Positions 28,936-45,035 of a stretch of DNA of 64,000 bases are shown here, piece after piece; within the stretch, counting starts at the first letter, position 1, and each line of letters opens with the position of its first letter. Below the pieces are notes generated by a model that worked only from the letters and a program-made list of their open reading frames with translations, searched no databases and had not been told where the DNA came from. This DNA comes from Achromobacter pestifer (GTDB lineage Bacteria > Pseudomonadota > Gammaproteobacteria > Burkholderiales > Burkholderiaceae_B). The position numbers and the translations under genes were made by a program. Location: positions 6,138,001 through 6,202,000 of the forward strand of contig NZ_CP053985.1 of NCBI RefSeq assembly GCF_013267355.1. The letters are read 5' to 3'.

Positions 28936-28942
28936 TCCGCCG

Positions 28943-28960
28943 GGTTCCCGCGCGGGAACC
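28943..28960. terminator. Perfect 18-bp GC palindrome after the DUF2325 gene
   Basis: GGTTCCCGCGCGGGAACC is a perfect palindrome 8 bp past the DUF2325 stop and about 75 bp before the kinase start. As RNA it would form a hairpin with almost no loop, and there is no T-run, so an operator for the kinase gene is as likely as a terminator. Confidence 0.4.
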
Positions 28961-29033
28961 GTAGCGTCGGGTTACCTAGCGTTTCGGCTGCGCGGCCGTT
29001 GCCGCAATACAGTCGAGGGGCAAGGGGGCCGAC

Positions 29034-32000
29034 ATGCTGACCAAGCGGGATCGAGTGGCGCTACCCTGGACGGACACGCTTGCCCGCCTGGAGGACGAGC
29101 GCATCATGTTGCAGCGCATAGCCGCCGGCATGCCGCTGGCCGAGGTGCTGGAGCACGTGCTGCATGCCATCGAGGCGCAATCCAGCGTGGAACTGCGCAC
29201 TTCCATCGCGCTGGTGGACGAATCCGGCGGTTTCCTGCTGCATGGCGCCGCGCCCAGTCTGCCGGCGGCTTACAACGCCGCGGTGCATAAGGCCGCCATC
29301 GGCCCCGGCAGCGCGTCCTGGGGCGAGGCGGCTTACACCGGCAGTCCGGTCTACGTGGAAGACATCGCCTTGAATCCGGGTTGGGCGCGCTGGCGCGACC
29401 TGGCCTTGTCGCACGGCCTGAGGGCTTGCTGGTCCACGCCAATCAAGGCGCCCGACGGCCGCCTGCTGGGTGTGTTCTCCAATTACTACGCCGTGGCGCG
29501 CTCGCCCTCGGCCCACGATATCGACGCGATCGCGCTGGTGACGCGCAGCGCCGCGCTGGCGATAGAACGCCATCTGACGGAGCTGGCGCTGCGCCAGAGC
29601 GGCGAACGCTGGCGCGCCATGTTCGCCGGCATGCAGGAAGCGTTTTTTCTCAGCGAGGCCTTGCGCGACGATGCCGGCCGCATCGTCGATTTCCGCTTCC
29701 TGGAGGTGAACCCGGCCTTCGAACGCCAGACCGGCATGAAGGAAGGCGATACCTTGGGCCATACGCTGCGCGAGATGATTCCCGGCGTGCCCGGCCAGAT
29801 CATGGATACGTTCGCCCAGGTCATCGAGACCGGCGAGCCGACCCAGTTCGAGTTCATGGTGCCCGCGCCCAAGGAGGCCTGGTACGAGGCTCGAGCGCGC
29901 AGGGACGGCGTCGACAGGATGATGGCGCTGTTCCTGGACGTGACGGCGCGCAAGACGGCCGAAGCCGAATTATGGGAAGGGCAGCACCGCAAGAATTACC
30001 TGGGCGCATTGGGCGACCGCATGCGTGAGCTGCACCGCCAGGAGGACATCGAGCGGGCCGCCTGCGAGGGCCTCTGCCAGCATTTGGCCTTGGGCCAGGT
30101 GGCGGTGCTGGATGCGAAAGGCGAAGGCCGGGCCCCCGTCATCTCCTCGCGCTGGCCCGCTGGAAGAGAAAGCCTGGGCCAGCCGCCGCACGCGCTCGAT
30201 GCCTTGGGCCACGATTACCATGCGGCGCTGCGCCAGGGCCGTACGGCCTACCTGGCGCCGTTGCTTGGAGAAGCTGGTGGCGAGATCCGTCCCTGGGCCA
30301 TCGTCGTGCCGCTGCGGCGCTGGGGCCGGCACGGTGGCGCCTTGCTGGCATGCCCATCGTCCGGCGGCAAGCCCAAGGCCAGCGACATCGCTTTCATGGA
30401 GGAAGTTGCCGAACGCATGTGCGGGGCGGTCGAGCGCTCGCAGTATGCGCGCACGCTGGAGCAGCGCGTCGAGGACGCGATCGCGGAGCGGGACCGGATC
30501 TGGCGCCTGTCCCCCGAACTGCTGGCGGCGGTTGACCGGCAAGGGCGCTTCGTCAGCGTCAACCCCGCGGTACGCCCCATTCTGGGCTGGACTCCCGAGC
30601 AGTTCATGTCGATGGACCTGTGCGAGCTGATTCATCCGGACGATCTGGCGGCGACGCTGGCGGCCTGGAGCTGGGCCTCCGGTGACATGGGGCCACGCCC
30701 CGGCGCAAGGCATCTTGAAAACCGCCTGCTCAAGCGCGATGGCGGCTACTGCTGGATCACCTGGAGCATGTCCTGGGCGCAGGACAGCCTGTACATGACG
30801 GGCCGGGACGACACCGACCTGAAACAGCAGGCCGAGGCGCTGCGTGACACCGAGAATGCGTTGCGGCAGTCGCAGAAAATGGAAGCGGTGGGGCGCCTGA
30901 CAGGCGGCATCGCCCATGATTTCAACAATATGCTGCAGGGGATCTCGGGCGCGCTCTACCTGGTGCAGCGCAAGGTCACGGCGGGCGCGCCGGAACAGGC
31001 GCTGCGCTTCGTCGACGTAGCCATGGATTCCGCCAACCGGGCAGCGCACCTGACGCAGCGGCTCCTGACCTTTTCGCGCCGCCAGCCCATCGATCCCAAG
31101 CCGTTCTGCGCGGCTTCCGCGCTGCAATCCATGGTGGCCCTGTTCCACCGCTACACTGGCGAACGCGTGGCCTTGCGGCTGGACCTGCAGCCGGAGCTGT
31201 GGACGGTCTGTTGCGACAAGAACCAGTTCGAGAACGCCATGCTGAACCTGGTGATCAATGCCTGCGATGCCATGCCGAACGGTGGCGCGCTGACGGTGGG
31301 CGCGCGCAACGTGGCGCCGGACGACAGATTGCTGGCGCTATGCGCGGGCACGCATTCCGGACAGTACGTCGAGGTGTCAGTGACGGACGTCGGCTGTGGC
31401 ATGCCGCCGGATGTGTTGGCCCATGCTTTCGATCCGTTCTTCACGACCAAGCCCATGGGCCAGGGCACCGGCCTGGGCCTGTCCATGATCTATGGTTTCG
31501 CCAAGCAGGCTGGCGGCGCGGCCAGCCTGGAGAGCACGGTGGGCGAGGGCACCACGGTCAGACTGTTCCTGCCGCGCCACGATGGCGCGCCAGAAAGCAT
31601 GCAGAACGGCGAGCGCGCCTTGGCGGCCACGCCCGGGGCGGCGCGCCAGGAAGTCGTACTGGTGGTGGAAGACGATGCGAACGTGCGCGAGATGGTGCGC
31701 GAATGCCTGTCCGAACTCGGCCTGGACGTGTTGACCGCGGTGGACGGCGAGGCCGGGCTGGAGCTGTTGCAGTCCGCGCACGGGATCGATCTGCTGGTCA
31801 CCGATGTCGGATTGCCGGGACTCAACGGCCGGCAACTGGCCGACGCCGCCCGCGTGGCGCGTCCCGGCCTGCCCGTCTTGCTGATGACCGGATACGCCGA
31901 AAGCGCGGCGCGCGGCCAGGGCTTTCTGGAACAGGGTCTGGAACTGATCGTCAAACCCTTTCAGCTGGACAAGCTGTCCGAGCGCGTGCAGGGCATGCTG

Positions 32001-32042
32001 GACAGCGCGCCGGGCAGGCCGGACCAGGACATCCAGCGCTAG
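29034..32042 (+). CDS. Hybrid sensor histidine kinase (GAF-PAS-GAF-PAS-HisKA-HATPase-REC)
   Basis: 1002 residues with no membrane segment, so a cytoplasmic sensor. Order: GAF (about 30-190), PAS (195-310), second GAF-like region (330-480), PAS (490-615), HisKA with the H-box GGIAHDFNN near residue 628, HATPase with NLVINACDAMPNGG, DVGCGM, FDPFFTTKPMGQGTGLGLSM, and a C-terminal receiver with EDD, phospho-acceptor Asp in LLVTDVGLPGLNG and Lys in LIVKPFQ. It lacks an HPt domain. It lies next to rpoN2 and two sigma-54 activators, so it is a candidate input for the activator at 34878. GGGGG stands before the ATG at 29034. Confidence 0.9.
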   Translation: MLTKRDRVALPWTDTLARLEDERIMLQRIAAGMPLAEVLEHVLHAIEAQSSVELRTSIALVDESGGFLLHGAAPSLPAAYNAAVHKAAIGPGSASWGEAAYTGSPVYVEDIALNPGWARWRDLALSHGLRACWSTPIKAPDGRLLGVFSNYYAVARSPSAHDIDAIALVTRSAALAIERHLTELALRQSGERWRAMFAGMQEAFFLSEALRDDAGRIVDFRFLEVNPAFERQTGMKEGDTLGHTLREMIPGVPGQIMDTFAQVIETGEPTQFEFMVPAPKEAWYEARARRDGVDRMMALFLDVTARKTAEAELWEGQHRKNYLGALGDRMRELHRQEDIERAACEGLCQHLALGQVAVLDAKGEGRAPVISSRWPAGRESLGQPPHALDALGHDYHAALRQGRTAYLAPLLGEAGGEIRPWAIVVPLRRWGRHGGALLACPSSGGKPKASDIAFMEEVAERMCGAVERSQYARTLEQRVEDAIAERDRIWRLSPELLAAVDRQGRFVSVNPAVRPILGWTPEQFMSMDLCELIHPDDLAATLAAWSWASGDMGPRPGARHLENRLLKRDGGYCWITWSMSWAQDSLYMTGRDDTDLKQQAEALRDTENALRQSQKMEAVGRLTGGIAHDFNNMLQGISGALYLVQRKVTAGAPEQALRFVDVAMDSANRAAHLTQRLLTFSRRQPIDPKPFCAASALQSMVALFHRYTGERVALRLDLQPELWTVCCDKNQFENAMLNLVINACDAMPNGGALTVGARNVAPDDRLLALCAGTHSGQYVEVSVTDVGCGMPPDVLAHAFDPFFTTKPMGQGTGLGLSMIYGFAKQAGGAASLESTVGEGTTVRLFLPRHDGAPESMQNGERALAATPGAARQEVVLVVEDDANVREMVRECLSELGLDVLTAVDGEAGLELLQSAHGIDLLVTDVGLPGLNGRQLADAARVARPGLPVLLMTGYAESAARGQGFLEQGLELIVKPFQLDKLSERVQGMLDSAPGRPDQDIQR

Positions 32043-32071
32043 TTCGCTTCAAAGCGGGCGCGGTGCCAGGC

Positions 32072-33508
32072 CTAATGGCGGCGGCGCAATTCCGCGGGCG
32101 GCATGCGCAATTGCCCCCGATACTTCGACACCGTGCGCCGCGCCAGCAGTATTCCGTTGGCGGCCAGTTGCTGGGTCAAGGCCACGTCCGATAGCGGCAT
32201 CGCCGGGTCCTCGGCCTCGACCATTTCCTTGATCAGCGCGCGTACCGCCGTGGCCGAGCAGGAACCGCCGGTATCGGTGGCCAGTTCGCGTGAAAAGAAG
32301 TGGCGGAATTCGAACACGCCGCGTGGGGTCACCATGTATTTGCCGACAGTGGCGCGCGAGACCGTGGATTCATGCAAGTCCAGGTCGTCGGCCACCTCGC
32401 GCAGCATCAGCGGCCGCAAGGCGACGTCGCCATACTCGAAGAAGGTCTGCTGGCGCTTGACGATGGCTTCGGCCACGCGCTGGATGGTGACATAGCGCTG
32501 TTCAACGTTGCGTACCAGCCAGCGGGCTTCCTGAAGCTCCTGGGCCATGGGGCTGCGGTCGTCGAGGTGGGCGCGCCGGAACAGTTCGGCATAGGTCTGG
32601 TGCAGCCGCGCCTGGGGCATGGCGTTGCGGTTGGGCAGCACGCGCCAGCGCGATTGCCATTTGTCCACGAACACGTCGGGCACGACATAGACGGGCGCTT
32701 CGGCGCTATAGCGGCCGCCCGGTTTCGGGTCCAGGCTGCGGATCAGCGCGCAGGCCTCGCGCAAGGCGTCCTCGGAGCAGCCTAACTGCTGGCGCAGGCC
32801 GGCGCAGTCGTTGCGGGCCAGCCGGTCGAGCTGCTGCTGCACGATGCGCAAGGCCAGCGCGCGCAGGTCGGCGCTGATGCCGGCCGAGGCCGCCAATTGC
32901 AGGGACAGGCATTCGCTCAGGTCGCGGGCGGCCAAGCCCGGGGCGTCCAGCTGCTGGACCAGGCGCAACGCGGTCATCCATTCGCCTTCATCGGGAACCG
33001 GCTGCGCGCCGCGCGGCGCGTCGCCCCATAAACTGGACAGCGGCGCGCGCAGGTATCCGTCGTCGTCCAAGGCGTCGATGATGTACTCGGCGAGCAAGCG
33101 GTCGCGCGCCTGCAACGGATAATTGCCCAGCTCCTGCGACAAGCGCTGGCTCATCGACAAGCGCGCAGCTACCCACAGCCCCTGGTCTCCGTCCGCGCCG
33201 TCGCCCTGGGCGCGCGTGGGGTAATCGCCTGAGTAGGCCGGCGCGTCAGGCGGCGGCAGCTCGGTTTGCGCCGCGGGCTCCAGCGGCGCGGGCGAGGGCA
33301 GGTCCGCGGGAGCAAAGCCGTCCGCGGCGGGCGGCAGGTCGCTTTCTTGCTCGTCCGGATCCTCAAGGAACGGATTGCTGGCCAGGGCCTGTTCAACCGC
33401 GGTGGTGAATTCCATCGCCGTCATCTGCAGCAGTTTGACGGATTGCTGCAGGCGGGGCGCCAGCGTCATCTGCTGGCGCAGGCGCAATTCTTGCGTGGGG
33501 TAGACCAA
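32072..33508 (-). CDS. rpoN2: RNA polymerase sigma-54 factor (RpoN paralogue)
   Basis: 478 residues, full length for RpoN. Region I is Gln/Leu-rich (ELRLRQQMTLAPRLQQSVKLLQMTAMEF), region II acidic, region III has the core-binding part and the HTH (LHESTVSRATVGKYMVTPRGVFEFRHFF), and the C-terminus ends in the RpoN box ARRTVSKYRG. The usual box is ARRTVAKYRE, so two positions differ. The start is a TTG at 33508 with AGGAG 7 bp upstream. Neighbours are sigma-54 activators, not the lptB/hpf/ptsN genes that flank the housekeeping rpoN, so I take it as a second copy; the symbol is my label. A perfect -24/-12 promoter precedes it. Confidence 0.93.
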   Translation of the reverse strand: MVYPTQELRLRQQMTLAPRLQQSVKLLQMTAMEFTTAVEQALASNPFLEDPDEQESDLPPAADGFAPADLPSPAPLEPAAQTELPPPDAPAYSGDYPTRAQGDGADGDQGLWVAARLSMSQRLSQELGNYPLQARDRLLAEYIIDALDDDGYLRAPLSSLWGDAPRGAQPVPDEGEWMTALRLVQQLDAPGLAARDLSECLSLQLAASAGISADLRALALRIVQQQLDRLARNDCAGLRQQLGCSEDALREACALIRSLDPKPGGRYSAEAPVYVVPDVFVDKWQSRWRVLPNRNAMPQARLHQTYAELFRRAHLDDRSPMAQELQEARWLVRNVEQRYVTIQRVAEAIVKRQQTFFEYGDVALRPLMLREVADDLDLHESTVSRATVGKYMVTPRGVFEFRHFFSRELATDTGGSCSATAVRALIKEMVEAEDPAMPLSDVALTQQLAANGILLARRTVSKYRGQLRMPPAELRRRH

Positions 33509-33560
33509 TCGAGTCTCCTGGACACTGGCTGCCGGACGGGCAACCCATCCTGAAACTCAA

Positions 33561-33575
33561 GCAAAGACCGTGCCA
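33561..33575 (-). promoter_or_regulatory. Perfect sigma-54 promoter of rpoN2
   Basis: On the minus strand TGGCACG-GTCT-TTGC matches the sigma-54 consensus TGGCACG-N4-TTGC at every position. The -24 GG is at 33574-33573 and the -12 GC at 33562-33561, with exact N10 spacing. Transcription would start near 33550, giving about a 40-nt leader to the TTG start of rpoN2. Confidence 0.8.
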
Positions 33576-33681
33576 AGTCCCGTGACGGGCCGGGGCGGGG
33601 CCATCGCGTGGAACGCGCTGCTTCAGTATTACAAGGAAGCGGTAAGAAATGCTCCCCGACCTCCGCTGCAGGGTCCGGAGA

Positions 33682-34692
33682 TCAGCAGCCGGCGCCGTCC
33701 TGCCCATCCTTCTCATAGTCCTCGAGCCGGTTGTAGAGCGTCTTCAAACTTAGGCCCAGGCTGTCGGCGGCGCTGCGCTTGTCGCCCGCGTGATGCGCCA
33801 GCGTCGCCAGGATGAATGCACGCTGCGCCTGGCCCAGCGACATGCCGATGGGCAACGTCAGCGCACCGTCGCGCAGCACGGGCTGCGGTGCCGCACGGGA
33901 ACGTGGCAGCAGCTCGGTTTCGAGTTCCCCGTCGGCCAGGATGAAAGCGCGCTGCACCGCGTTGCGCAGTTCGCGGACATTGCCTGGCCAATCATGCAGC
34001 GAGATCGATTCCAGCATATGCGCAGAGAAGGTCTTTTGCGTGCCGTTGTCCGAGTTCAAGGTATCCAGGAACCAGTGCGCCAGCACCAGGGCATCGTCGC
34101 CTCGCTCGCGCAATGGGGGGACGCGCAGTGGAATGACTAGGAGCCGGTGCAGGAAGTCCTGGCGCAGGCGGCCTTGCGCGACCGAAGCAAAGGGGTCGCG
34201 GTTACTGGCGCAGATGATGCGGACATTCGCGCGCAGCAGGTCGGAGCCCCCCACGCGCTGGTACGTGCCGGCCTCGAGCACGCGCAGGAAGTTGACCTGC
34301 AGGTCTGGCGGCATTTCGGTCACTTCGTCCAGGAACAGGGTGCCGCCGCTGGCGTACTCGAAGTAGCCGGCGTTCTGCGCGACGGCGCCGGTGAAGCTGC
34401 CTTTTTCATGGCCGAACAGTTCCGCGTGCGCCAGGCTGCCGCTGATGGCGCCGCAATTGACGGCAACAAAGGGCTGTTCGCGGCGTGCGCTGGCATCGTG
34501 GATGGCGCGCGCCACGATTTCCTTGCCGGTTCCGCTTTCGCCCACGATAAAGACGCTGGCGTCGGTGGCCGCGGCCAATTGCAATTGGGCCCCGAGCTTT
34601 TGCATGACGGGGGACAGGTCGGACGCGTCGATGAGTACGTCCTGGGACGCCGTCGCCGATCCGCGCGCGGGGTTGCTGCTGCGATTGGCCAT
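33682..34692 (-). CDS. Sigma-54 activator without receiver domain (PspF-like layout)
   Basis: 336 residues from the ATG at 34692 (CAGGAAT upstream). Only about 25 residues precede the AAA+ domain, so there is no N-terminal sensor. Walker A is VGESGTGKE, the sigma-54 contact loop is GSFTGA, Walker B is LFLDEVTE, and the Arg fingers are in LRQDFLHRL. A C-terminal Fis-like HTH ends in [20 protein letters not shown]. Without its own sensor it should be active by default or controlled by a partner. It sits between rpoN2 and the divergent second activator, whose recognition helix is nearly the same. Confidence 0.92.
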   Translation of the reverse strand: MANRSSNPARGSATASQDVLIDASDLSPVMQKLGAQLQLAAATDASVFIVGESGTGKEIVARAIHDASARREQPFVAVNCGAISGSLAHAELFGHEKGSFTGAVAQNAGYFEYASGGTLFLDEVTEMPPDLQVNFLRVLEAGTYQRVGGSDLLRANVRIICASNRDPFASVAQGRLRQDFLHRLLVIPLRVPPLRERGDDALVLAHWFLDTLNSDNGTQKTFSAHMLESISLHDWPGNVRELRNAVQRAFILADGELETELLPRSRAAPQPVLRDGALTLPIGMSLGQAQRAFILATLAHHAGDKRSAADSLGLSLKTLYNRLEDYEKDGQDGAGC

Positions 34693-34877
34693 GCTTATTC
34701 CTGGGCCCGCCCCGGGCCATGAGCGTCTGTCCCATGCTAGCGGGCTGACGCAGGGCGGCATGCGACGATTTGCAAGCATTCGAAAATCTTGATGGAAAGT
34801 GTCGAACAGTTGCCCCTGGCCCGCGCGCAATCGCTATGCTGAACGACTCACCACAACATCCGCGATAGGGAGCCAGC

Positions 34878-36260
34878 ATGCCCCATCTGCTGATCGTCGA
34901 TGACGATCCCGCGATACGCGAAACCCTGGCCGAGATCGGCCGTGAGAGCGGCTTCTCGGTGGCCCTGGCGGCCAGCATCAAGGACGCGCTGATCCAGCTG
35001 GAACGGCACGCGCCCGACTTGGTGCTGACCGACATCCGTTTGCCCGAAGGCAGCGGCATGGACATCTTCAAGAGCGAGGCTGCCGCCAGCGCGGAGGTCG
35101 TGGTGATGACGGGGCATGGCACCGTCGACAATGCGGTGCAGGCCCTGCGTCTCGGGGCCACGGATTACCTGGTCAAGCCGATTTGCATGGAACGCTTGAA
35201 CGGGATTTTTGCCCGCGTGAACGCGAGTGCGGGTGGCGACCTGCAGGGCGCGCCGTTTGAAGAGCCGGGACGCTATGGAAAGATGTACGGCGCGTCGGCC
35301 TGCATGCAGGCCCTGTACCGGCAGATCGGACGCGTGGCCACGACCAACGTGACAACGCTGTTGATCGGCGAAAGCGGCACGGGCAAGGAGTTGGCCGCGC
35401 ACGCCATCCATGAACTCAGCGCGCGCCGCCAGCGCCCGTTGATCGCGGTGAACTGCGGCGCGATCTCGCCGAACCTGATCGAAAGCGAGATGTTCGGCCA
35501 TGAGCGCGGCAGCTTCACCGGCGCGGACCGCCAGCACAAGGGTTACTTCGAGCGCGCCGACGGCGGCACGCTGTTCCTGGACGAAGTAACCGAAATGCCG
35601 CTGGATCTGCAGGTCAAGCTTTTGCGGGTCCTGGAGACCGGGCAGTTCATGCGGGTGGGGACCAATCGGGAGATCGCCTGCGATATCCGCATCGTCGCCG
35701 CCACCAACCGCGATCCCGAGCAGGCGGTCAGGGAAGGCAAGCTGCGCGAAGACCTTTATTACCGGTTGAGCGTCTTCCCGATCAAGCTCCCGGCGCTGCG
35801 CGAACGCGGCGACGACATCCTCTTCCTCGCGGATCGCTTCCTGCAAGGATTGAACCAAGAGTCCGGCAAGAACAAGGAATTCTCGCCGCGCGCGGTGGAC
35901 GCGCTGCAGCAGTACGAATGGCCGGGCAATGTGCGGGAACTCAAGAATTACGTGCGCCGCGCTTTCATCATGGCGGACGGCGACAGGCTGGAGGCAGACA
36001 TGCTGACGCCGCGGGTGTCGCCGGCCGGAGAGGGCGCCGGTGGCCATGTGAGCGTGCCGGTGGGAGAAACGCTGGCGGAAGCGGACCGGCGCCTGATCCT
36101 GGCGACGCTGGAGCGTTGCAACGGCGTCAAAAAGCAGGCCGCGGCGGTGCTCGGCATCAGCCCCAAGACGCTGTACAACCGGCTTGAGGAATACGCCGCG
36201 GCGGACGCGGCTGCGGCTGCGCCAGCCGTGCCGCTTGCCCGGAAACAGGACCGGTCCTGA
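34878..36260 (+). CDS. NtrC-type sigma-54 response regulator
   Basis: 460 residues. The receiver (1-115) has DDD, phospho-acceptor Asp in [13 protein letters not shown], Thr in MTGHG and Lys in YLVKPI. The AAA+ domain (135-370) has Walker [10 protein letters not shown], the GSFTGA loop, Walker B LFLDEVTE and [14 protein letters not shown]. The C-terminal Fis-type HTH is [19 protein letters not shown]. Phosphorylation should drive oligomerisation and opening of sigma-54 promoters. It is divergent from the receiverless activator; the hybrid kinase at 29034 is the nearest candidate donor. Targets are probably the -24/-12 promoters in this island. Confidence 0.94.
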
Positions 36261-36262
36261 CT

Positions 36263-36646
36263 TCATTTGCCGTACCGCGTTTTCAGGTCGGCCATGCAGG
36301 CGTCCTTGGCGTTGCCGGACATACCGTCGCATTTCTCCTTCCCGACTTTGTAGTCGGCGTCGTTGCGCACCTTGGCCGCGTCATGCGAGGCCTCGGCTTT
36401 TTCCTTGCCTGCCTTGGCGTCCGCCCGGGCCTTGTCGCGGGTGGCCTCGGCCTGCTGTAGGCAGACGTCCTTCTGGTTGCCCTTCATGACGTCGCAACGC
36501 TTCTTGTCCAGCTTGTACTGGTCATCGATCTGTTCGTTGCTGCGCACGGGGGTGGCGCCTGTCTGCGTGGTTTGCGCCTGCGCCTGGAACGTCAGGGCGG
36601 AGAGGCTCAGGGCGACTGCGGGGAGTACGACTCGGGACAGATTCAT
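36263..36646 (-). CDS. Exported protein with two Cys-x10-Cys repeats
   Basis: 127 residues with a signal peptide ending QAQAQ. The mature part is very hydrophilic and carries two copies of the motif YK-x-KK/EKCD-x-M-x-GN-x-KD-x-C (KRCDVMKGNQKDVC near 50-63 and KCDGMSGNAKDAC near 104-116), separated by a Lys/Ala/Glu-rich helical stretch. Each repeat could form one disulfide in the periplasm. The function is unknown; similar proteins are common in Burkholderiales. AGGAG precedes the ATG, and a minus-strand -24/-12 element stands about 54-68 bp upstream, so sigma-54 control is likely. It is convergent with the NtrC-type activator, 2 bp apart. Confidence 0.85.
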   Translation of the reverse strand: MNLSRVVLPAVALSLSALTFQAQAQTTQTGATPVRSNEQIDDQYKLDKKRCDVMKGNQKDVCLQQAEATRDKARADAKAGKEKAEASHDAAKVRNDADYKVGKEKCDGMSGNAKDACMADLKTRYGK

Positions 36647-36692: not shown

Positions 36693-36740
36693 TGCGCAAG
36701 CAAGCGGCATTCCCGGGCCGGCCGGGCATGCCGCTTGCTC
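36693..36740. promoter_or_regulatory. Near-perfect palindrome holding two divergent sigma-54 promoters
   Basis: The arms GCAAGCGGCATTCCCGG (from 36700) and CCGGGCATGCCGCTTGC (to 36738) pair with a single mismatch, making a near-perfect inverted repeat. Each arm reads outward as a -24/-12 element: plus strand GGGCATGCCGCTTGC (36724-36738, GG at 36725, GC at 36737), minus strand GGGAATGCCGCTTGC (36714-36700). The plus one fires towards the gene at 36814, the minus one towards 36646. The palindrome could alternatively be an activator site or a DNA hairpin. Confidence 0.6.
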
Positions 36741-36813: not shown

Positions 36814-37047
36814 ATGGAATCCAAGCGCACAGACAAGGAAAAGGCGGGCATGGAATCGGGCAAGGCCAATGCGCCGCGCACGGAAACCGAGGCCGCGCAT
36901 CGCAGCGGGCAGTTTGGGACGGACAAGCCGGGCTTTGGCAAACCGCCCACCGCGCCCAAGCGCGAATCGGATCAGAAGCCCAATGACAAGGGCGCCGAGT
37001 ACGAGGAAGGCGGCCAGTATCCGGGCAAGCGCCCGGGCGCGAAGTAG
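36814..37047 (+). CDS. Small charged hydrophilic protein (77 aa)
   Basis: 77 residues without signal peptide, membrane segment, Cys or Trp; rich in Lys, Glu, Gly, Pro and Asp (KRTDKEKAGMESGK at the start, DKGAEYEEGGQYPGKRPGAK at the end). This is the composition of intrinsically disordered, hydrophilin-like stress proteins. I do not recognise a named family. CAGGGG precedes the ATG. A sigma-54 type promoter ends 76 bp upstream and would give a leader of about 64 nt. The DUF4142 gene follows after 88 bp and may be co-transcribed. Confidence 0.75.
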   Translation: MESKRTDKEKAGMESGKANAPRTETEAAHRSGQFGTDKPGFGKPPTAPKRESDQKPNDKGAEYEEGGQYPGKRPGAK

Positions 37048-37827: not shown

Positions 37828-38169
37828 CTACTGCCGTCCCACCACCACGCCGAACAGGAAAGCCGCGCCGGCCACCAGGCCGATCGCCTGCCATGGCCGC
37901 GCGTGGATGTATTCCTCGGTGCAGTCTATGGTCTCCCGCATCAGGTCGCCGGCATGATCGGAAGCGTCGCGCAGGCTGCGCCGCGTGGCGTGCAACTGCT
38001 CGGACAGGCGCGCCTTGAGCGCCTCCAGATCGGTCGCCGAGGCGTCTCTGAGCGTGGCTTCCAGATCGTCGATCCAGGCTTCCGGGTGCCGTGTACGCCT
38101 GTGCGCGCCGCGGTTGTCCGGGCCGTTCTCCGGAAAGTCGGAGGGCAGGGGGGTGTTGGTGGATGCCAT
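37828..38169 (-). CDS. DUF883 (ElaB/YqjD-like) membrane-anchored protein
   Basis: 113 residues. A charged amphipathic helix (WIDDLEATLRDASATDLEALKARLSEQLHATRRSLRD) is followed by a C-terminal membrane segment WQAIGLVAGAAFLFGVVVGR. This is the DUF883 layout of E. coli ElaB/YqjD, C-tail-anchored inner-membrane proteins that bind ribosomes and rise in stationary phase. AGGAG precedes the ATG at 38169. It follows the Cys-rich gene by 77 bp on the same strand and so probably shares its sigma-54 promoter. Confidence 0.88.
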   Translation of the reverse strand: MASTNTPLPSDFPENGPDNRGAHRRTRHPEAWIDDLEATLRDASATDLEALKARLSEQLHATRRSLRDASDHAGDLMRETIDCTEEYIHARPWQAIGLVAGAAFLFGVVVGRQ

Positions 38170-38246
38170 CGGTAGCTCCTGGCTGTCGGGCGGGAATTGC
38201 GCCTGCGCGGGCCGGCCCGGGCGGCCGCGCGGCGGATCGGGAGGTT

Positions 38247-38576
38247 TCAGGCCTCCAGCATGTCGCGGCAGGCCAGCGTGCAGCTCAGGCATGCGCCCGC
38301 GCAGACCTGGCAATGCTCTGCCTTGTGTGGCGAGCATTCGCGCGCACCCGCGTCGCACATCAGCGCGCACAAGGTGCACAGCGCACGGGCGAACTCGCCG
38401 TCGCGCGCCAGCATGGCCGCGCACAGCCGGCAGACGGCGGCGCAATCGGTGCATAGCGCGATGCAGCGCCGCATGTACGCCGGATTTTCGTGCAGGCAGG
38501 CAGAGGCGCAGATATCGCAGGCGACCGCGCATTCGTAGCAGGCTTGCACACATTGCTCGAAATTTGGGTCTCGCAT
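38247..38576 (-). CDS. Four-helix-bundle Cys-rich copper-binding protein (Csp/DUF326)
   Basis: 109 residues with about 18 Cys, spaced C-x3-C and C-x2-C along four helices (NFEQCVQACYECAVACDICASACLHE; RCIALCTDCAAVCRLCAAML; CTLCALMCDAGARECSPH; HCQVCAGACLSCTLACRDM). This is the copper storage protein pattern, in which Cys line the inside of the bundle and hold Cu(I). There is no signal peptide, so it is cytosolic (Csp3-like). AAGGAG precedes the ATG at 38576. A very good minus-strand -24/-12 promoter stands 32 bp upstream. The DUF883 gene follows it. Confidence 0.92.
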   Translation of the reverse strand: MRDPNFEQCVQACYECAVACDICASACLHENPAYMRRCIALCTDCAAVCRLCAAMLARDGEFARALCTLCALMCDAGARECSPHKAEHCQVCAGACLSCTLACRDMLEA

Positions 38577-38607
38577 TGCATCTCCTTGTGTGTGCCCGGT
38601 ACGCACC

Positions 38608-38622
38608 GCAACCGGCGTGCCT
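38608..38622 (-). promoter_or_regulatory. Sigma-54 promoter of the Cys-rich gene
   Basis: Minus strand AGGCACG-CCGG-TTGC differs from the consensus TGGCACG-N4-TTGC only at the first base. The GG is at 38621-38620 and the GC at 38609-38608, spacing N10. The start would be near 38597, about 21 nt before the ATG of the Cys-rich gene. Confidence 0.75.
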
Positions 38623-38782
38623 GGAGCCAGGCCACATCCGCTTGCAATTTGATGCCGCGCGGCGATGACCCTGCCGGCCGGAAGACACCGCTAAGATACT
38701 GCCGCCGCGTTCTCGCGTCGATGTTCCGCGCAGACCGGATAAACCATACGCCTCGACGCCTCAAGAAGCCGCGCGCGGGGCC

Positions 38783-38797
38783 GGGCACGCGGCTTGC
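38783..38797 (+). promoter_or_regulatory. Sigma-54 promoter of the Pro-rich small gene
   Basis: GGGCACG-CGGC-TTGC differs from the consensus TGGCACG-N4-TTGC only at the first base, with GG at 38784-38785 and GC at 38796-38797. It would start transcription near 38808, about 24 nt before the ATG at 38832. It is divergent from the Cys-rich gene promoter, with about 160 bp between the two -24 elements for shared activator sites. Confidence 0.75.
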
Positions 38798-38831
38798 TGA
38801 CGGATGCATGGACTATCCCCCGGAGACCGCT

Positions 38832-38999
38832 ATGCACATCGCGTACCCGTACTACCTGCACGTTCCGCCCAAGCCTGATCCGATACCGCCGGGCTCGCCG
38901 CCCGGGGATCTGCCTGTGGATCCGGATACCGACGAGCCGGACGTCGACCTGCCTCCCTTGTCACCGCCCGGCAAGGAAATCACGCCACCCAGCCCGTGA
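38832..38999 (+). CDS. Proline- and aspartate-rich small protein (55 aa)
   Basis: 55 residues, about one third Pro and rich in Asp (VPPKPDPIPPGSPPGDLPVD, DTDEPDVDLPPLSPPG). It has no signal peptide or membrane segment and should be unfolded and acidic. I know no function. Support for it being real: GGAG upstream, a near-consensus sigma-54 promoter 35 bp before the ATG, and a DUF3309 gene 48 bp downstream on the same strand. A longer in-frame reading back to 38490 would run through the promoter and is not credible. Confidence 0.7.
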   Translation: MHIAYPYYLHVPPKPDPIPPGSPPGDLPVDPDTDEPDVDLPPLSPPGKEITPPSP

Positions 39000-39047
39000 C
39001 TTGGGCTGCGCCATTCCACTGACCCTAACAAGAACCGAGGAGTCGCC

Positions 39048-39200
39048 ATGTCGACCATCCTGCTGATTATCCTTATCCTGCTTCTGGTCGGCGCCGTGCC
39101 GGCCTGGCCCCACAGCCGTGGCTGGGGTTATTTCCCCAGCGGCATACTGGGCATATTGCTGATCGTCCTGATCGTGATGCTGTTGACTGGGCGGTTGTAG
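39048..39200 (+). CDS. DUF3309 small membrane protein
   Basis: 50 residues: two hydrophobic segments (TILLIILILLLVGAVPAW and GILGILLIVLIVMLLTGRL) around the conserved loop PHSRGWGYFPSG, which is diagnostic for DUF3309. These tiny inner-membrane proteins are common next to stress and envelope genes; the function is unknown. GAGGAG precedes the ATG at 39048. It follows the Pro-rich gene by 48 bp, so it is probably read from the same sigma-54 promoter. Confidence 0.88.
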   Translation: MSTILLIILILLLVGAVPAWPHSRGWGYFPSGILGILLIVLIVMLLTGRL

Positions 39201-39362
39201 CAGGACCCGCCAGGTCGTGGACGCGCGGGCCGTGTCGGGCGGCTCGCGCGCCGGTAGCGGAGCAGGGCGGCCATCTGGCGGACCGGCGGGTGGCGCGCGC
39301 TTCCGGCCAGGCGTAAGATCGCCGGGTTTTTGTGCAGCCCCGCGATCCACGGCATTCCCGAC

Positions 39363-40304: not shown

Positions 40305-41134
40305 TGCGAGAACATGACCGGCACGGTCATGCTCTTCAGGAGGGACGCGGTGGCGCCGCCCAGCGCCCACTGGCGCAGCTTGCTGTGGCCATAGGCGCCC
40401 ATGACGATCAGGTCCGCGCTATGGTCGGCGGCGGCGTTCAGGATGGTGCTGCCCACGCCGACGCCCTTGATTTCACGGCGCACGTGATCCGGCGCCGGCA
40501 TGCCTTGCGCCACGCAATAGGAGGCCAGGTCTTCGAACGGCGCTTCGTGCTTGGGGCCGGCGGCGCCTTCGTTCATGGTCAGCACGGTCATGTGCGAGGC
40601 CAGGCGCAATATTGGCGCGGCATCGGCCAGCGCGCGGGCGGCCTCGCGGCTGCCGTCCCAGCAGCACAGCACGCGGTCGCCGATCACTGGGAATTCGCCG
40701 CTGGACGGAATCGCCAGCACCGGCCGGCCCGCCGTCAGCAGGGTCTGCTCGACGAACTCGATCTCGTGCGCGGCTTCGACGTCTTCGCGGTTTTCCTGGC
40801 TGACCACGATCAGGTCGGTGGTGCGGCCCAGCAGCGCCACGGTCTCGCTGGGCGAGGATGTGCCCGCGCGCATGAAGGCGGGCACGTCCGCTTCGGCCGC
40901 GGCCTCCAGAAAGGCCGTTTCCACCGACTCGCGGCTCTGCGCCTGCAATTCCTTGATGATGCCCAGCGAACGCGACATGAGCACGGACTCGCCGTAGTAA
41001 TACTGCGGCGGGGCGGCGTTGGCGTAGATGCCGACCAGCTCGGCCTTGTGGCGCTTGGCCAGGGCCAGGGCAGCTTCAATGCGGCGTTTGCAGTCGAATC
41101 CGTGGTCCAGGTGGACAGAAATGCGGCGGTACAT
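40301..41134 (-). CDS. Universal stress protein with two UspA domains
   Basis: 277 residues with two tandem UspA folds (about 1-145 and 155-277). The first opens with MYRRISVHLDHGFDCKRRIEAALALAKRHKAELVGIYA; the second ends with ADLIVMGAYGHSKLRQWALGGATASLLKSMTVPVMFSH, which includes the ATP-binding G-x2-G-x9-G-(S/T) type loop (GAYGHSKLRQWALGGAT). Such tandem proteins support survival under low oxygen or starvation. AAGGAGG precedes the ATG at 41134, and an ANR/FNR-type dyad stands 62-75 bp upstream, so anaerobic induction is likely. Confidence 0.92.
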   Translation of the reverse strand: MYRRISVHLDHGFDCKRRIEAALALAKRHKAELVGIYANAAPPQYYYGESVLMSRSLGIIKELQAQSRESVETAFLEAAAEADVPAFMRAGTSSPSETVALLGRTTDLIVVSQENREDVEAAHEIEFVEQTLLTAGRPVLAIPSSGEFPVIGDRVLCCWDGSREAARALADAAPILRLASHMTVLTMNEGAAGPKHEAPFEDLASYCVAQGMPAPDHVRREIKGVGVGSTILNAAADHSADLIVMGAYGHSKLRQWALGGATASLLKSMTVPVMFSH

Positions 41135-41195
41135 GGAGGCCTCCTTGTTTGAGCGTGCCATGGGCATATGGTTACGCTTTCCGGCCTTTTTGCCC

Positions 41196-41209
41196 TTGAT
41201 GCGCGTCAA
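41196..41209. promoter_or_regulatory. ANR/FNR-type box of the universal stress protein gene
   Basis: TTGAT-GCGC-GTCAA on the plus strand (TTGAC-GCGC-ATCAA on the minus strand) matches the FNR/ANR consensus at 9 of 10 positions. Its centre at 41202.5 puts a -41.5 start near 41161, about 27 nt before the ATG at 41134, the classic class II geometry. Confidence 0.65.
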
Positions 41210-41248
41210 GCCCGCGGCAGTTCGCCGGGGCCGGCGCAAACGGCGGGG

Positions 41249-43369
41249 CTATGGCGCGGCCGGCGCCCGTTCCACGCGCTCGCGCAACTGGCGCAATTGG
41301 CGCGCTTGTTGCGCGATGCGGTCCAGCGGTCCGGCCAGCTCCGGATAGCCCGCGGCCACCGCTGCCGGCACGGCCAATTGGCGGTCGCTGGAACCTGGCG
41401 CGGGCTGTTGCGGATGCAGCGCGTGCGCCAGCGCCGGACCGTACTCGGAGAGCGCCTGGGCCGCGGGCGATCCGGCAGGCAGGGCCGGCTGTATTTCCAG
41501 CACGGTGCCCGCCGCCGTGACGCGGCGCATGGCGTTCAGCAGGGTTTCCGCCGTGCCCACATTGCGGTCGCGATGCACAGGGTTCTGTTGCAGCCGCTGC
41601 AAGGAGGCTTGCGCGTTGTCGGCCGACAGGCAGGCCATGCGGCGCAGCGCCACGATGTCCTGTCCGGCGTCGCCGCTTTTGGCGCGCAGCAAGGCGCGCG
41701 CATAGGCCGCGTGGCGTTCCAGCGCCAGGCTGAGGGCGCCGGCCAGTTGCCGCGGCTCCTTCTCGGGCCAGACCAGGAAGCCCACCAGCAGCGCCAGGAT
41801 GCCGCCCAGCACGCTGTTGAAGGCGCGCAGGGCCGCCAGCATCGGCTCCTGGATCTCGGGCTGCTGGATGTGGGTGACCAGCACGAACTGCGAAGTCAGG
41901 AAGAACGTGAACAGCGCGTAATGGATCGTGCGCGCGGCGAATGTGCCCAACGCGATGGGCAGCACCGCCAGGGCCACGGACAGGGGCGTGCTCAGGAACA
42001 GCCCCAGCAGCGATGCGCCAATGGCGCCTGCCACGCTGCCGCCGACGCGTTCCAGCGTGCGCTGCCAGGTGGTCGCGAAGTAGGGCTGCAGGATGAAGAC
42101 CAGCGTCAGCGACATCCAGTAGCCGTGGTTGACGGCGAAAGTCTTGGACAGCGCCACCGCGATGGTGGCGCCCACGCCCACGCGCAGCGCGTGGCGGAAC
42201 GCGTCGGATTCGAAGCTCAGGTTCTGCCGCAACGCGCGCCAGGCGTCCTGCGTGCGGCTGGCCGTGATGCGGTCGCGCGCGGGCGTCGCGGGCGCGTCGC
42301 CTTGGTCAAACAGGGACTGGGTGACGGCTTGCGCCGTGTGCAGCAGGCGGTCCAGCACCGGCACCATGGTGGCCAGTTCCGGCGCGTGAGCCAAGGCGCC
42401 GCCACGCAGCTCGTGCAGACCGGCGCTGTAATGGGCCAGGCGTTCGCGCAGGCACTGCGCCTGCTTGGCGTCATTGACGTCCGACGTGCTGGCGATGGCA
42501 TTGCACAGGCTGGCATAGCGGTGCAGCGCGTGCGACAGATGGGCGCCGGCGCCGCGGCCCAGCCAGCGCGGCGCATTCGATTCCAGCAGGTCGGCCGCGG
42601 CCACCAACGCGATGAAGCTGTCCTCGGCATTGTCCAGCAGGTACAGCAACTGGTGCGCGCGGGCGCGGCGCGAGGGCCGCGCGTCCTGCACTTCGCGGAT
42701 GCGCGTGCGGGCCGCTTCCAGCGCGGCGCGCTGGGCGCTGCGCTGCGGGCGCGTGACGGCGCTCCAGGCCTGGGGGCTGGCCGCCGGCGCCAGCCCGGAA
42801 TACATGCGGGCCAGCGCGTCGGCGAAATCCGCCAGCCCGCGGTAGCAGTGCGCGACCGCATGGGTGGCGTCCTTCCACGGCCGCCTGCGCCACACCAGCG
42901 CCGTCATCAGAATGGCCCAGGCCGCGCCGGCCAGGAAGAACAGCGTGTACGACAGGCTTTCGGACCAGGTCGGGGCGGGCAATTCGGCCGCCACCACGAA
43001 GCCCGCGGACAGCAGGGTGCCGACGATGGCCGCGGCCGGCCCCAGCACGCGCAGCAGGCCGCCGAAGGTGCAGCACACGAAGGTCAGCGGCAGCAGCAAC
43101 CACAGGTGGGCCGCGCTGACGCTGGCCAGGAAGCAGAACAGCGCGCCTATCAGCCCCAGCGCCAGCATCGCGCCCGCGCGCTGGCGCAGCGGACCGCCGG
43201 GATCGCCGAAGCAGGCCCAGAACGCCGCGATGGCACTCCAGCCCAGGCGCGGTTCATGCGCCAGCACGGCCAGGATGACGGGCGCGGCGCTGATGGCCGC
43301 GGCTTGGAGGGCGTCCAGCCACAGGACGTTGCGCAGGGAGGCGCGCCAACGGGAGAGCAGGTTTTTCAC
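41249..43369 (-). CDS. FUSC-family inner-membrane transporter (YccS/AaeB-like)
   Basis: 706 residues from a GTG at 43369. Two blocks of about five to six membrane helices (residues 15-160 and 385-530) are separated and followed by cytoplasmic helical domains. The second block has HGYWMSLTLVFILQPYFATTWQRTLERVGGSVAGAIGA in pattern, the fusaric-acid-resistance-like (FUSC) signature, and the first block has its counterpart around LGWSAIAAFWACFGDPGG. These proteins export aromatic carboxylic acids or related compounds. No periplasmic adaptor (AaeA) gene is adjacent. The start lacks a clear ribosome site. Confidence 0.87.
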   Translation of the reverse strand: MKNLLSRWRASLRNVLWLDALQAAAISAAPVILAVLAHEPRLGWSAIAAFWACFGDPGGPLRQRAGAMLALGLIGALFCFLASVSAAHLWLLLPLTFVCCTFGGLLRVLGPAAAIVGTLLSAGFVVAAELPAPTWSESLSYTLFFLAGAAWAILMTALVWRRRPWKDATHAVAHCYRGLADFADALARMYSGLAPAASPQAWSAVTRPQRSAQRAALEAARTRIREVQDARPSRRARAHQLLYLLDNAEDSFIALVAAADLLESNAPRWLGRGAGAHLSHALHRYASLCNAIASTSDVNDAKQAQCLRERLAHYSAGLHELRGGALAHAPELATMVPVLDRLLHTAQAVTQSLFDQGDAPATPARDRITASRTQDAWRALRQNLSFESDAFRHALRVGVGATIAVALSKTFAVNHGYWMSLTLVFILQPYFATTWQRTLERVGGSVAGAIGASLLGLFLSTPLSVALAVLPIALGTFAARTIHYALFTFFLTSQFVLVTHIQQPEIQEPMLAALRAFNSVLGGILALLVGFLVWPEKEPRQLAGALSLALERHAAYARALLRAKSGDAGQDIVALRRMACLSADNAQASLQRLQQNPVHRDRNVGTAETLLNAMRRVTAAGTVLEIQPALPAGSPAAQALSEYGPALAHALHPQQPAPGSSDRQLAVPAAVAAGYPELAGPLDRIAQQARQLRQLRERVERAPAAP

Positions 43370-43572
43370 GCTAGGAATACGGCAGCGGCGGTGGGCCCGG
43401 CAGGGCGAAAGACGCAAACCCTACCATGTCGACAAGGCATTTCAGCAAGGGCGGCGGCGGGGCCGGAAGAGCCGGCGCCATTCATGAATCCGAGCAGCTT
43501 AATACGTATGGATACATATATGTGACTTTGCCGCCGCAGCGGCGCAGAATTGCCTGGAAGAAAGTCTGGAAA

Positions 43573-43587
43573 TGGCATACAAAAAGC
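43573..43587 (+). promoter_or_regulatory. Weak sigma-54 promoter candidate before the EAL gene
   Basis: TGGCATA-CAAA-AAGC has a perfect -24 half (TGGCAT) and GC at the right N10 distance (43586-43587), but AA replaces TT next to the -12 GC. Transcription would start near 43599, 78 nt before the EAL start codon. Confidence 0.35.
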
Positions 43588-43676
43588 GCTGTAGCTGGGA
43601 ATACTCAGTCCAATGTGCCTCATTCTGCGCCCGGACAGCGCAGGTTTTCACCCAGGGGCGCGCAAGGAGTGTCGAC

Positions 43677-44591
43677 ATGACGTCGAATCACGAGGCTTCC
43701 ACAGACTCGGTGGCGAGCGACGACGAGATCGCCGCCATGATCACCGGCAAGGATGGCCTGCGCATGCTGTTGCAGCCGCAGGTGGACCTGCTGACAGGCC
43801 GGATCGTGTCGGCCGAAGCGCTGGCACGCTGGCGGCATCGCCGCCTGGGCATCATCATGCCCTCCGACTTCATTCCGGCCGTCAACCGCCTGGGGTTGGA
43901 CAAGGTGCTTTTCGAGCGCGTCTGCCTGCGGGTCATAGACATGCTGCTGACGATGCGGCGCGCCGGCATCGCGATACCCGTGGCCATCAACGCGCCGGCC
44001 TCCACCTTGTCGGACGAGGCCGCGGTCGACTTCCTGCTGGACCGCATCTACGCGGCGGAGCTGCCCGCGTCGCTGGTGCGGGTCGAACTGACGGAAGACC
44101 AGCCCATCCGCGAACTCGACGTGCTGCGCGCCACGCTGCTGAAACTCGAGAATGCCGGCTGCGAGGTCAGCCTGGACGACTTCGGCACCGGCCACGCGTC
44201 GTTGAAACTGCTGTCGGCGCTGCCGCTGTCCGAGGTCAAGATCGACCAGTATTTCGTCACGCGCATGCGCCGCAGCGCGGTCGCCTTCGAAGTGCTGCGC
44301 ACCGCCGCGGAACTGGCGAACCGGCTGGGCCGCCGGGTGGTCGCCGAGGGCGTCGAGAACGTGGCGGACATTCCTGCCCTGCGGGCGGCCGGCTGCCGCT
44401 ACGGCCAGGGCTTCGCGCTGGGCCGTCCCATGCCGCTGGACGAGTTGATGGTGCGGCTGCGCACGCAGCGCGACCAAGGCGAACCGTTGGCCGCGCCCGC
44501 CGCCTATGCGTCGTCCTGGCTCGACACCTACGACGCTTCCGCGCAGGAACCGCAGTCGGCGCGCGGCAAGCGGCACGCGACCACGCAATAG
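43677..44591 (+). CDS. EAL domain c-di-GMP phosphodiesterase
   Basis: 304 residues. A short N-terminal tail (about 25 residues) leads straight into an EAL domain with the catalytic set kept: AEALARW (EAL), INAPAS (Asn), VELTEDQ (Glu), SLDDFGTG (double Asp), VKIDQYF (Lys), AEGVEN (Glu) and QGFALG (Gln). It has no receiver or sensor domain, unlike the relative at 21299, with which it shares the same subtype sequence. The C-terminal 40 residues are polar and probably disordered. AAGGAG precedes the ATG at 43677. It is divergent from the FUSC gene. Confidence 0.92.
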   Translation: MTSNHEASTDSVASDDEIAAMITGKDGLRMLLQPQVDLLTGRIVSAEALARWRHRRLGIIMPSDFIPAVNRLGLDKVLFERVCLRVIDMLLTMRRAGIAIPVAINAPASTLSDEAAVDFLLDRIYAAELPASLVRVELTEDQPIRELDVLRATLLKLENAGCEVSLDDFGTGHASLKLLSALPLSEVKIDQYFVTRMRRSAVAFEVLRTAAELANRLGRRVVAEGVENVADIPALRAAGCRYGQGFALGRPMPLDELMVRLRTQRDQGEPLAAPAAYASSWLDTYDASAQEPQSARGKRHATTQ

Positions 44592-44696
44592 GGCCGGGGC
44601 GCCCAGCGTATTTTTTACCGACCAGGCCGGACTTTACCGGCAGTCCTTGCGTCCCCCTGTGCGCGAGACTGCGGGCGGTGACGGCTGCGCGGGTTT

Positions 44697-44711
44697 GGGC
44701 ACGCGGGTTGC
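44697..44711 (+). promoter_or_regulatory. Sigma-54 promoter of the Gln-rich small gene
   Basis: GGGCACG-CGGG-TTGC differs from the consensus TGGCACG-N4-TTGC only at the first base, with GG at 44698-44699 and GC at 44710-44711. It would start near 44722, about 36 nt before the ATG at 44758. It is almost the same sequence as the promoter at 38783. Confidence 0.75.
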
Positions 44712-44757
44712 TGTAGTGGGTATGGCGGAGCTTTTTCCGTCTTCCAGGAGACTTGCA

Positions 44758-44934
44758 ATGCCCAATCAGAACCAGCCCGACCAGCAAAAGCAGCAGCAGA
44801 AGCAACAGACCCAGGAAAACCCCAGGGACCGCAATCAACCCGGGCAGCAGCCCGACCAATCCGGCCAGCATGCCGATAAAGACCGGCAACAGCCGGGGCA
44901 GGCTCCGGGACAGCAAAGCAAGATGCCGCGCTGA
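44758..44934 (+). CDS. Glutamine-rich small hydrophilic protein (58 aa)
   Basis: 58 residues, about one third Gln, plus Pro, Asp, Lys and Asn (MPNQNQPDQQKQQQKQQ, NPRDRNQPGQQPDQSGQ). There is no hydrophobic residue run, no Cys and no signal peptide, so it is a disordered hydrophilin-like peptide. CAGGAG precedes the ATG, a near-consensus sigma-54 promoter lies 46 bp upstream, and a strong terminator follows, so it forms a complete monocistronic unit. Function unknown; it belongs with the other small proteins of the sigma-54 island. Confidence 0.75.
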   Translation: MPNQNQPDQQKQQQKQQTQENPRDRNQPGQQPDQSGQHADKDRQQPGQAPGQQSKMPR

Positions 44935-44993
44935 TCTTGGCTGATGGCCCCGCTACGGCTGGCGCCGCCGGCCTGGCCAGGCTGTCGCGAAAT

Positions 44994-45035
44994 GGCCCAG
45001 GCCGCTTTGATCAGCGGCCTGGGCCGTTCGTTTTT
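44994..45035 (+). terminator. Strong rho-independent terminator
   Basis: GGCCCAGGCCGC (44994-45005) pairs perfectly with GCGGCCTGGGCC (45014-45025) around an 8-nt loop, followed by GTTCGTTTTT. It lies 60 bp after the stop of the Gln-rich gene and closes that unit. Confidence 0.9.

Follow-up and report, generated by a model that had tools for sequence, protein, structure and literature searches.

A second sigma-54 factor of Achromobacter pestifer goes together with a promoter sub-class of its own ahead of general-stress genes and probably runs a general stress regulon

To our knowledge, all well-known sigma factors for general stress (RpoS, SigB and EcfG) belong to the sigma-70 family. In a 64,000-nucleotide stretch of the 7.18 Mb genome of Achromobacter pestifer (G000:C2:6138001-6202000, called the window here), an island of genes at 28936..45035, about 0.22% of the genome, carries rpoN2, which encodes a second sigma-54 factor (RpoN2). 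On the sequence evidence this is a real, conserved and unusual system, in which genomes with a second sigma-54 also tend to carry a separate promoter sub-class before general-stress genes, and we put the probability that RpoN2 is a specialised sigma-54 running a general stress regulon at about 0.7. Such a factor would resemble EcfG/PhyR and SigB in being a single alternative sigma factor for many stresses and differ from them in that both belong to the sigma-70 family and are controlled by partner switching.

A close described sigma-54 paralogue is rpoN2 of Ralstonia solanacearum, whose expression, according to the accessible parts of the report, requires rpoN1 and which has a sigma-54 site 63 base pairs (bp) upstream (PMC4371752). 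It is likewise a second beta-proteobacterial rpoN with a classical sigma-54 site, rpoN1-dependent and not interchangeable with rpoN1; unlike the gene studied here, its role is called enigmatic, a function not having been found for it, and those parts of the text propose no stress regulon (it is compared by description, outside our tree). The megaplasmid-borne RpoNp of Bradyrhizobium sp. DOA9, as presented in the accessible text, is also a second rpoN on another replicon, although in an alpha-proteobacterium (PMC13207237). The sigma-54 paralogues of Rhodobacter (Cereibacter) sphaeroides have separate roles, and their promoters differ just at -11 in the excerpts available (PMC3162934, PMC12316311); they serve nitrogen-limited and flagellar genes, whereas the genes here are of stress type and the promoters differ at -26, -18 to -16 and -10. 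In the Borrelia RpoN-RpoS pathway, as outlined in the accessible text, sigma-54 also lies upstream of another sigma factor (PMC6719511), but it works through RpoS, whereas in our case the factor made under sigma-54 control seems to be another sigma-54. Among the top-ranked entries of open-access literature searches, none connected general stress with an additional rpoN in Alcaligenaceae or Burkholderiaceae, Bradyrhizobium RpoNp being the nearest case, and the accessible parts of the report on a Bordetella pertussis sigma-54 activator (PMC11722255) contain no link to the RpoN2 system.

The rpoN of the window is a second copy, as the sequence-only reading of this DNA had supposed: another rpoN with a 538-amino-acid open frame lies at C2:2496992, which also removes the possibility, named beforehand as one that would count against that reading, that a housekeeping rpoN is missing elsewhere. 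No third copy emerged from a genome-wide rpoN search. RpoN2 has the activator-interacting, core-binding and DNA-binding domains of sigma-54, scores 422.7 bits against the NCBIfam model rpoN_sigma (cut-off 277.35) and carries an RpoN box, ARRTVSKYR, starting at residue 456. Compared with 17 housekeeping (RpoN1) sequences, RpoN2 proteins show a Q-to-R substitution in region I (69 of 71), an R after the helix-turn-helix (71 of 71) and an A-to-S substitution in the RpoN box (64 of 71). Among named relatives, the closest RpoN2 belong to A. xylosoxidans B_1 (93%), A. aegrifaciens (92%) and A. insolitus (90%).

Six -24/-12 elements had been proposed in the island, and all exist at the positions originally given. 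They are listed below with rpoN2; the fractions give the loci with a conserved upstream site, defined as a best score of at least 14 of 16, among 38 named RpoN2 loci (the distant locus L071 of Syntrophomonadaceae, at 32% identity, was excluded from these counts).

32072..33508, minus strand: rpoN2, sigma-54 paralogue of 478 amino acids (Pfam AID, CBD and DBD all above cut-off)
33560..33575, minus strand: classical element TGGCACG-GTCT-TTGCT of rpoN2, conserved in 35/38
36699..36714, minus strand: class-2 element GGGAATG-CCGC-TTGCT of the Cys-x10-Cys gene, 25/27 orthologues
36724..36739, plus strand: class-2 element GGGCATG-CCGC-TTGCT of the 77-amino-acid gene, 17/29 orthologues
38607..38622, minus strand: weak class-2-like element AGGCACG-CCGG-TTGCG of the Cys-rich/DUF883 unit, 2/15 orthologues
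38783..38798, plus strand: class-2 element GGGCACG-CGGC-TTGCT of the Pro-rich/DUF3309 unit, 15/19 orthologues (Pro55)
44697..44712, plus strand: class-2 element GGGCACG-CGGG-TTGCT of the Gln-rich gene, strong in this genome

Sigma-54 promoters before small stress-type genes are therefore present as predicted, and four of the six elements are firm and conserved in relatives. The Cys-rich/DUF883 element is weak, and its poor conservation led us to drop it as a core promoter of the circuit. Three rpoN2 genes have no site (two in Bordetella ansorpii, one in genomosp. 13). Among comparison genes of the same loci, upstream sites at the same threshold were found for the receiverless activator ActA in 0/37, the NtrC-type activator NtrX in 0/38 (both labels are used in this analysis), the hybrid kinase in 1/36, DUF3309 in 0/18 and DUF4142 in 4/17; for DUF883 the count is 6/30, two of which (L037, L045) are artefacts with a start projected beyond the contig. 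In another genus, a class-2 site accompanies a gene for a small Gln/Asn-rich protein (L183). Between the Cys-x10-Cys and 77-amino-acid genes, the two class-2 elements at 36699-36739 point away from each other, back to back, and together make an almost perfect inverted repeat.

Exact GG-N10-GC spacing, by which the elements had been recognised, was rejected as evidence and is uninformative as the sole criterion, with 452 occurrences within the island. A density above background held up with a sigma-54 consensus score instead of spacing: with a threshold of 6.5, we count 4 sites in the island where Markov sequence predicts 0.56. Every one lies before a gene, and the sites at 36700 and 38608 score below this threshold. 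Two patterns were modelled on the island sites, so that the island share of their matches is partly circular and the matches outside are not: GGCAYGCNGSTTGCT has 8 exact matches genome-wide, 3 of them inside the island, and RGGMAYGNNNNTTGCT has 15, with 4 inside (3 for the reversed pattern). Allowing at most one mismatch, GGCAYGCNGSTTGCT gives 37 matches versus 9 for its reversed control. The pattern TGGCAYGNNNNTTGCW, near the literature consensus, has 24 matches genome-wide (4 when reversed), and the single match in the island is the rpoN2 promoter.

The sites fall into two sub-classes. Class 1, built from 34 rpoN2 promoters, has T at -26 at a frequency of 0.82 and T at -10 at 1.00. Class 2, from 66 orthologous sites of three island genes, has G (0.80) or A (0.18) and never T at -26. 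Its positions -18 to -16 usually read C-G-C, and T at -10 reaches just 0.26. The rpoN2 promoter is thus of the classical sub-class, unlike the stress-gene promoters, which contradicts the notion of one promoter type for rpoN2 and the small genes. In this genome, sites with T at -26 stand before genes for P-II, glutamine synthetase, an NMT1-type binding protein, an amidase and other nitrogen or carbon genes, as well as a few stress-like ones, and the 22 of 24 TGGCAYGNNNNTTGCW sites that were scanned precede P-II, glutamine synthetase, amidase, transport, catabolic and a few stress-like genes. Outside the island, the purine-at-26 pattern RGGMAYGNNNNTTGCT has 11 matches, about 7 of them before small or stress-type genes, several named by eye: a PRC-barrel-like protein, entericidin, a Pro-rich 63-amino-acid protein, proteins of 65, 68 and 71 amino acids and Cu/Zn superoxide dismutase.

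Some further sites of this genome deserve mention. The element AGGAACG-N4-TTGCT lies 126 bp before the Cu/Zn superoxide dismutase gene (L081, G000:C2:5795742). A second cluster of sigma-54 sites (L111, G000:C2:4713438-4725114) precedes PRC-barrel-like, 65-amino-acid and two small FYRTL-type genes, named by eye. Three small FYRTL paralogues (L080, L094, L104), the third of them outside this cluster, each have a site, with A at -26 in one and T in two. Divergent classical sites lie between periplasmic binding protein and amidase genes (G000:C2:4157574-4157829), and divergent pairs of similar spacing are listed for several relatives.

Among 150 family genomes, 64 encode RpoN2 (at least 450 bits, the next match being 380), and 67 of the other 86 carry another rpoN. 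The cross-genome pattern RGGMACGSSRCTTGCTG, which demands G at -10 and so captures part of class 2, occurs in 35 of the 64 RpoN2-bearing genomes (85 matches) versus 3 of the 86 without RpoN2 (4 matches; Fisher test 2.6e-13, kinship not accounted for); the reversed control has 2 matches in each group. Without the genus Achromobacter and genomes below 3 Mb, the counts are 26/53 versus 3/54 (2.3e-7, kinship again not accounted for), and by genus they are 11/19 with RpoN2 and 2/20 without. A classical pattern occurs in 115 of the 150 genomes, with and without RpoN2.

Of the 89 class-2 sites, 70 had their genes examined, 66 of them from genomes with RpoN2; the 19 left out include all three of genome G105 and the remaining ones of Achromobacter, and some of the assigned genes may be wrong or chance. 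Among the 25 of 66 Pfam families listed for these genes, entericidin (6), DUF2383 (5) and PRC-barrel (4) are the most frequent of those named here, besides DUF4142, DJ-1/PfpI, glycogen synthase (glgA), CinA and AsmA with two each, Ku, ferritin and a TPP enzyme with one each, and others; CsbD, hemerythrin, DUF3606, GlgX and PoxB were identified by eye. Products of at most 100 amino acids make up 27/70 of the class-2 set versus 2/22 of the T-at-26 set, with automatic choice of genes. A dedicated promoter class thus stands before many unrelated stress genes, as befits a general stress sigma factor, and co-occurrence points to RpoN2 as its reader. A narrower system for copper or envelope stress, as first envisaged, does not fit genes that look like a general stress regulon. 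RpoS regulons overlap with this list in entericidin, ElaB-type DUF883, PoxB-like, OtsA-like, OsmB-like, DJ-1/PfpI and glycogen genes, so that the RpoS response is similar in the kinds of its target genes; unlike the promoters here, which are of the -24/-12 type, it depends on a sigma-70-family factor.

RpoS itself, scored as TIGR02394 above cut-off with E. coli as positive control, was detected neither in this genome nor in any of the 150 family genomes. Across 200 genomes of the order it is present in 84, none of them among the seven family members of that sample. Beta- and gamma-proteobacteria were said to harbour rpoS in 2007, in the accessible part of that report (PMC2194791), and by the TIGR02394 test this family is an exception to the rule.

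RpoN2 reaches beyond the family. A tree of 64 rows, in which nine planned loci have no row, places the RpoN2 proteins in one clade (support 97/87) apart from housekeeping RpoN, including copies on Burkholderia megaplasmids. One of the two RpoN of genome G168 (L229) stands beside this clade on a branch of 1.32, and its placement is unsure. Outside the family, two genomes (G254 and G186) among the 193 sampled from the order encode RpoN2-like proteins of at least 440 bits, and such proteins are found at 48-51% identity on six Burkholderia megaplasmid records, five of which were examined, with gene tables for B. multivorans and B. pyrrocinia. In these two, the neighbours of RpoN2 include PRC-barrel, CBS, DUF3008, DUF1328, DUF3175 and glutamine-amidotransferase-type genes, joined by DUF892, DUF4142, Ku and LigD in B. 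multivorans and by trehalose genes in B. pyrrocinia. Across 24 RpoN2 neighbourhoods we counted 43 consensus sites versus 5.6 expected; 13 of the 43 are the promoter of rpoN2 itself, and the remainder include sites before OtsA, OsmB-like, BON, DUF883 and Pro-rich genes (BON confirmed, the others by eye or tblastn). Class-2 promoters are in this way scattered over the genome and over many genera, and the island is not self-contained as had been claimed; of the proposed dedicated alternative sigma-54 circuit, the dedication probably stands and the self-containment does not.

The regulatory genes of the island, with a candidate enhancer, are as follows.

29034..32042, plus strand: hybrid histidine kinase, GAF-PAS-PAS-HisKA-HATPase-receiver (Pfam; neighbourhood)
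33629..33645, minus strand: dyad TTAC-N9-GTAA, a putative enhancer ahead of the rpoN2 promoter (sequence)
33682..34692, minus strand: ActA, receiverless sigma-54 activator with a GSFTGA loop (Pfam; loop scan)
34878..36260, plus strand: NtrX, NtrC-type response regulator and sigma-54 activator with a GSFTGA loop (Pfam; linkage)

By Pfam, NtrX has the receiver, AAA+ and Fis-type helix-turn-helix domains of an NtrC-type regulator, and ActA has no receiver. As far as contigs extend, rpoN2 lies together with ActA and NtrX in the 38 RpoN2 loci. In 20 further genomes from 19 genera, all with a looser -24/-12 pattern upstream of rpoN2, NtrX is the commonest neighbour of rpoN2, adjoining it in 15, and a separate ActA is found in 11. 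GAFTGA is the canonical loop of NtrC-type enhancer-binding proteins; ActA and NtrX both depart from it with GSFTGA, and among ten other activators of the genome, nine of them readable, eight have GAFTGA and one GAYTGA. A scan for G-x-FTGA, which would miss other loop variants, was positive in 52 of 58 loci, with non-GSFTGA exceptions once in L265 and twice in L266; L068 and L262 also show GGFTGA, in a frame that looks unrelated. Between ActA and NtrX (window 34693-34877), Achromobacter has a conserved block near GATTTGCAAGCATTCGAAAATC without a sigma-54 site.

The hybrid kinase, which had been linked to the circuit by position, adjoins rpoN2 in all but one of the 28 Achromobacter loci L033-L060, the exception, L054, being on a short contig. 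It is not at RpoN2 in L061-L070 and stands beside it in 1 of the 20 further genomes (L252), so that it was rejected as a general partner of RpoN2 and is a candidate input in Achromobacter. The dyad TTAC-N9-GTAA, about 70 bp before the rpoN2 promoter, is exact in 22 of the same 28 loci; it is also exact in 3 of the 10 loci L061-L070 and in 2 of the 20 further genomes, at differing distances in these five.

From this arrangement we propose the following sequence of events. The rpoN2 gene would be transcribed from its classical sigma-54 promoter, most likely by housekeeping RpoN1, and in Achromobacter the candidate enhancer about 70 bp farther upstream would serve this promoter. RpoN2 with core polymerase would then favour promoters that have a purine at -26 and C-G-C at -18 to -16 and in which -10 is not fixed as T. 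NtrX, ActA or both would open class-2 promoters, the GSFTGA loop being matched to the altered region I of RpoN2, and the dispersed genes of general-stress type, for small proteins, membrane proteins and enzymes, would be switched on; the nearby NtrX is the likely activator. What we infer from these patterns is the reading of class 2 by RpoN2 and not by RpoN1, the identity of the activator and its mode of action, the signal, and expression that follows stress.

A number of observations weigh against this reading. Exact class-2 matches are missing from 29 of the 64 genomes with RpoN2, and class 2 is thin around Burkholderia RpoN2, where four neighbourhoods total 6 sites, two of them before rpoN2 itself. 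Genomes without RpoN2 supply four of the 70 genes, including one entericidin, and several of the 70 are mutually orthologous. In A. pestifer itself, some stress-like genes carry T at -26 as in class 1, and about 4 of the 11 outside matches of RGGMAYGNNNNTTGCT look like chance. RpoN2 and RpoS stand side by side in G254, and 86 of the 150 family genomes have neither, because of which a replacement of RpoS by RpoN2 is not general. As described in the accessible parts of two reports, rpoN2 of R. solanacearum could replace rpoN in an E. coli mutant and restored C4-dicarboxylate growth of a delta-rpoN1 strain, so that such an RpoN2 can read classical promoters; its loss left no phenotype in the traits examined (PMC4371752, PMC4676750). 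The complementation in E. coli suits the view that RpoN1, or both sigma factors alike, reads class 2, with RpoN2 a bystander or back-up and the sub-class a product of GC-rich drift and activator-specific context. Class 2 does agree with the general -24/-12 consensus, the RpoN box is nearly unchanged in both factors, and G083, which has RpoN1 alone, carries a class-2 site 215 bp before entericidin (C1:3210985-3211001, L174), which may be a relic or a counter-example. We nevertheless consider this view improbable, since class 2 is near the control level (4 matches versus 2 reversed) in the genomes without RpoN2, most of which have RpoN1, whereas classical sites occur in genomes with and without RpoN2, and sites are enriched around RpoN2 in distant genera.

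The enhancers raise a different question. Searches with dyads, k-mers and an expectation-maximisation motif finder in 86 and 80 upstream regions found no common enhancer at class-2 promoters; control regions outscored the class-2 regions in the motif finder, and the rpoN2 dyad, with at most one mismatch, occurs in 1 of 80 class-2 versus 0 of 80 control regions. This result also speaks against the reading preferred here. With the dyad conserved before rpoN2 in Achromobacter, the region I substitutions, and NtrX not adjacent in 5 of the 20 further genomes, it would suit an RpoN2 that is partly activator-independent, its RpoN1-set level being the switch and both activators acting at the rpoN2 promoter. 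Enhancers can be degenerate, however, RpoN2 keeps its activator-interacting domain, and the linked activators retain AAA+ domains and loops in most loci, so that we regard this as possible but unlikely; it is a variant of the general stress reading, not its opposite. A narrower circuit confined to the island, with the hybrid kinase sensing envelope or copper stress, seems highly improbable. Cys-rich DUF326-like, Cys-x10-Cys, FUSC and Usp genes lie close by, and the kinase keeps its place in Achromobacter; yet it is nearly always absent from RpoN2 in the further genomes, the Cys-rich promoter is poorly conserved, and class-2 sites occur genome-wide and, in other genera, before glycogen-, DNA-repair- and ferritin-type genes.

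The remaining genes of the island that carry or adjoin the elements are small.

36263..36646, minus strand: Cys-x10-Cys protein, 127 amino acids, signal-like N-terminus, without Pfam match
36814..37047, plus strand: charged, disordered-looking 77-amino-acid protein, without Pfam match
37828..38169, minus strand: DUF883 (ElaB-like) protein; Pfam C-terminal model above cut-off, NCBIfam ElaB match below cut-off
38247..38576, minus strand: Cys-rich DUF326-like protein (Pfam)
38832..38999, plus strand: Pro-rich 55-amino-acid protein (Pro55), without Pfam match
39048..39200, plus strand: DUF3309 membrane protein (Pfam), presumed second gene of the Pro-rich unit, with no site of its own
44758..44934, plus strand: Gln-rich 58-amino-acid protein, its length taken from the start downstream of its site, without Pfam match

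All genes named in the sequence-only reading are present as open reading frames or Pfam matches, and Pfam also identifies DUF4142, Usp, FUSC and EAL proteins here. Further small Pro-rich proteins lie downstream of class-2 sites elsewhere. A structured RNA was considered and dropped, the window giving no Rfam match at gathering score.

On balance we lean towards a beta-proteobacterial lineage without RpoS in which an additional RpoN, made in a sigma-54-to-sigma-54 cascade, handles general stress with a promoter code and GSFTGA activators of its own. If this is true, the use of sigma-54 as a general stress sigma factor would tie the stress response to ATP-driven activators and would explain how stress genes could be controlled in members of the family, where RpoS is not detected. 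It would also suggest a testable role for the additional rpoN in Burkholderia, and perhaps in Ralstonia, and would supply two natural sigma-54 paralogues whose promoter preferences can be told apart.

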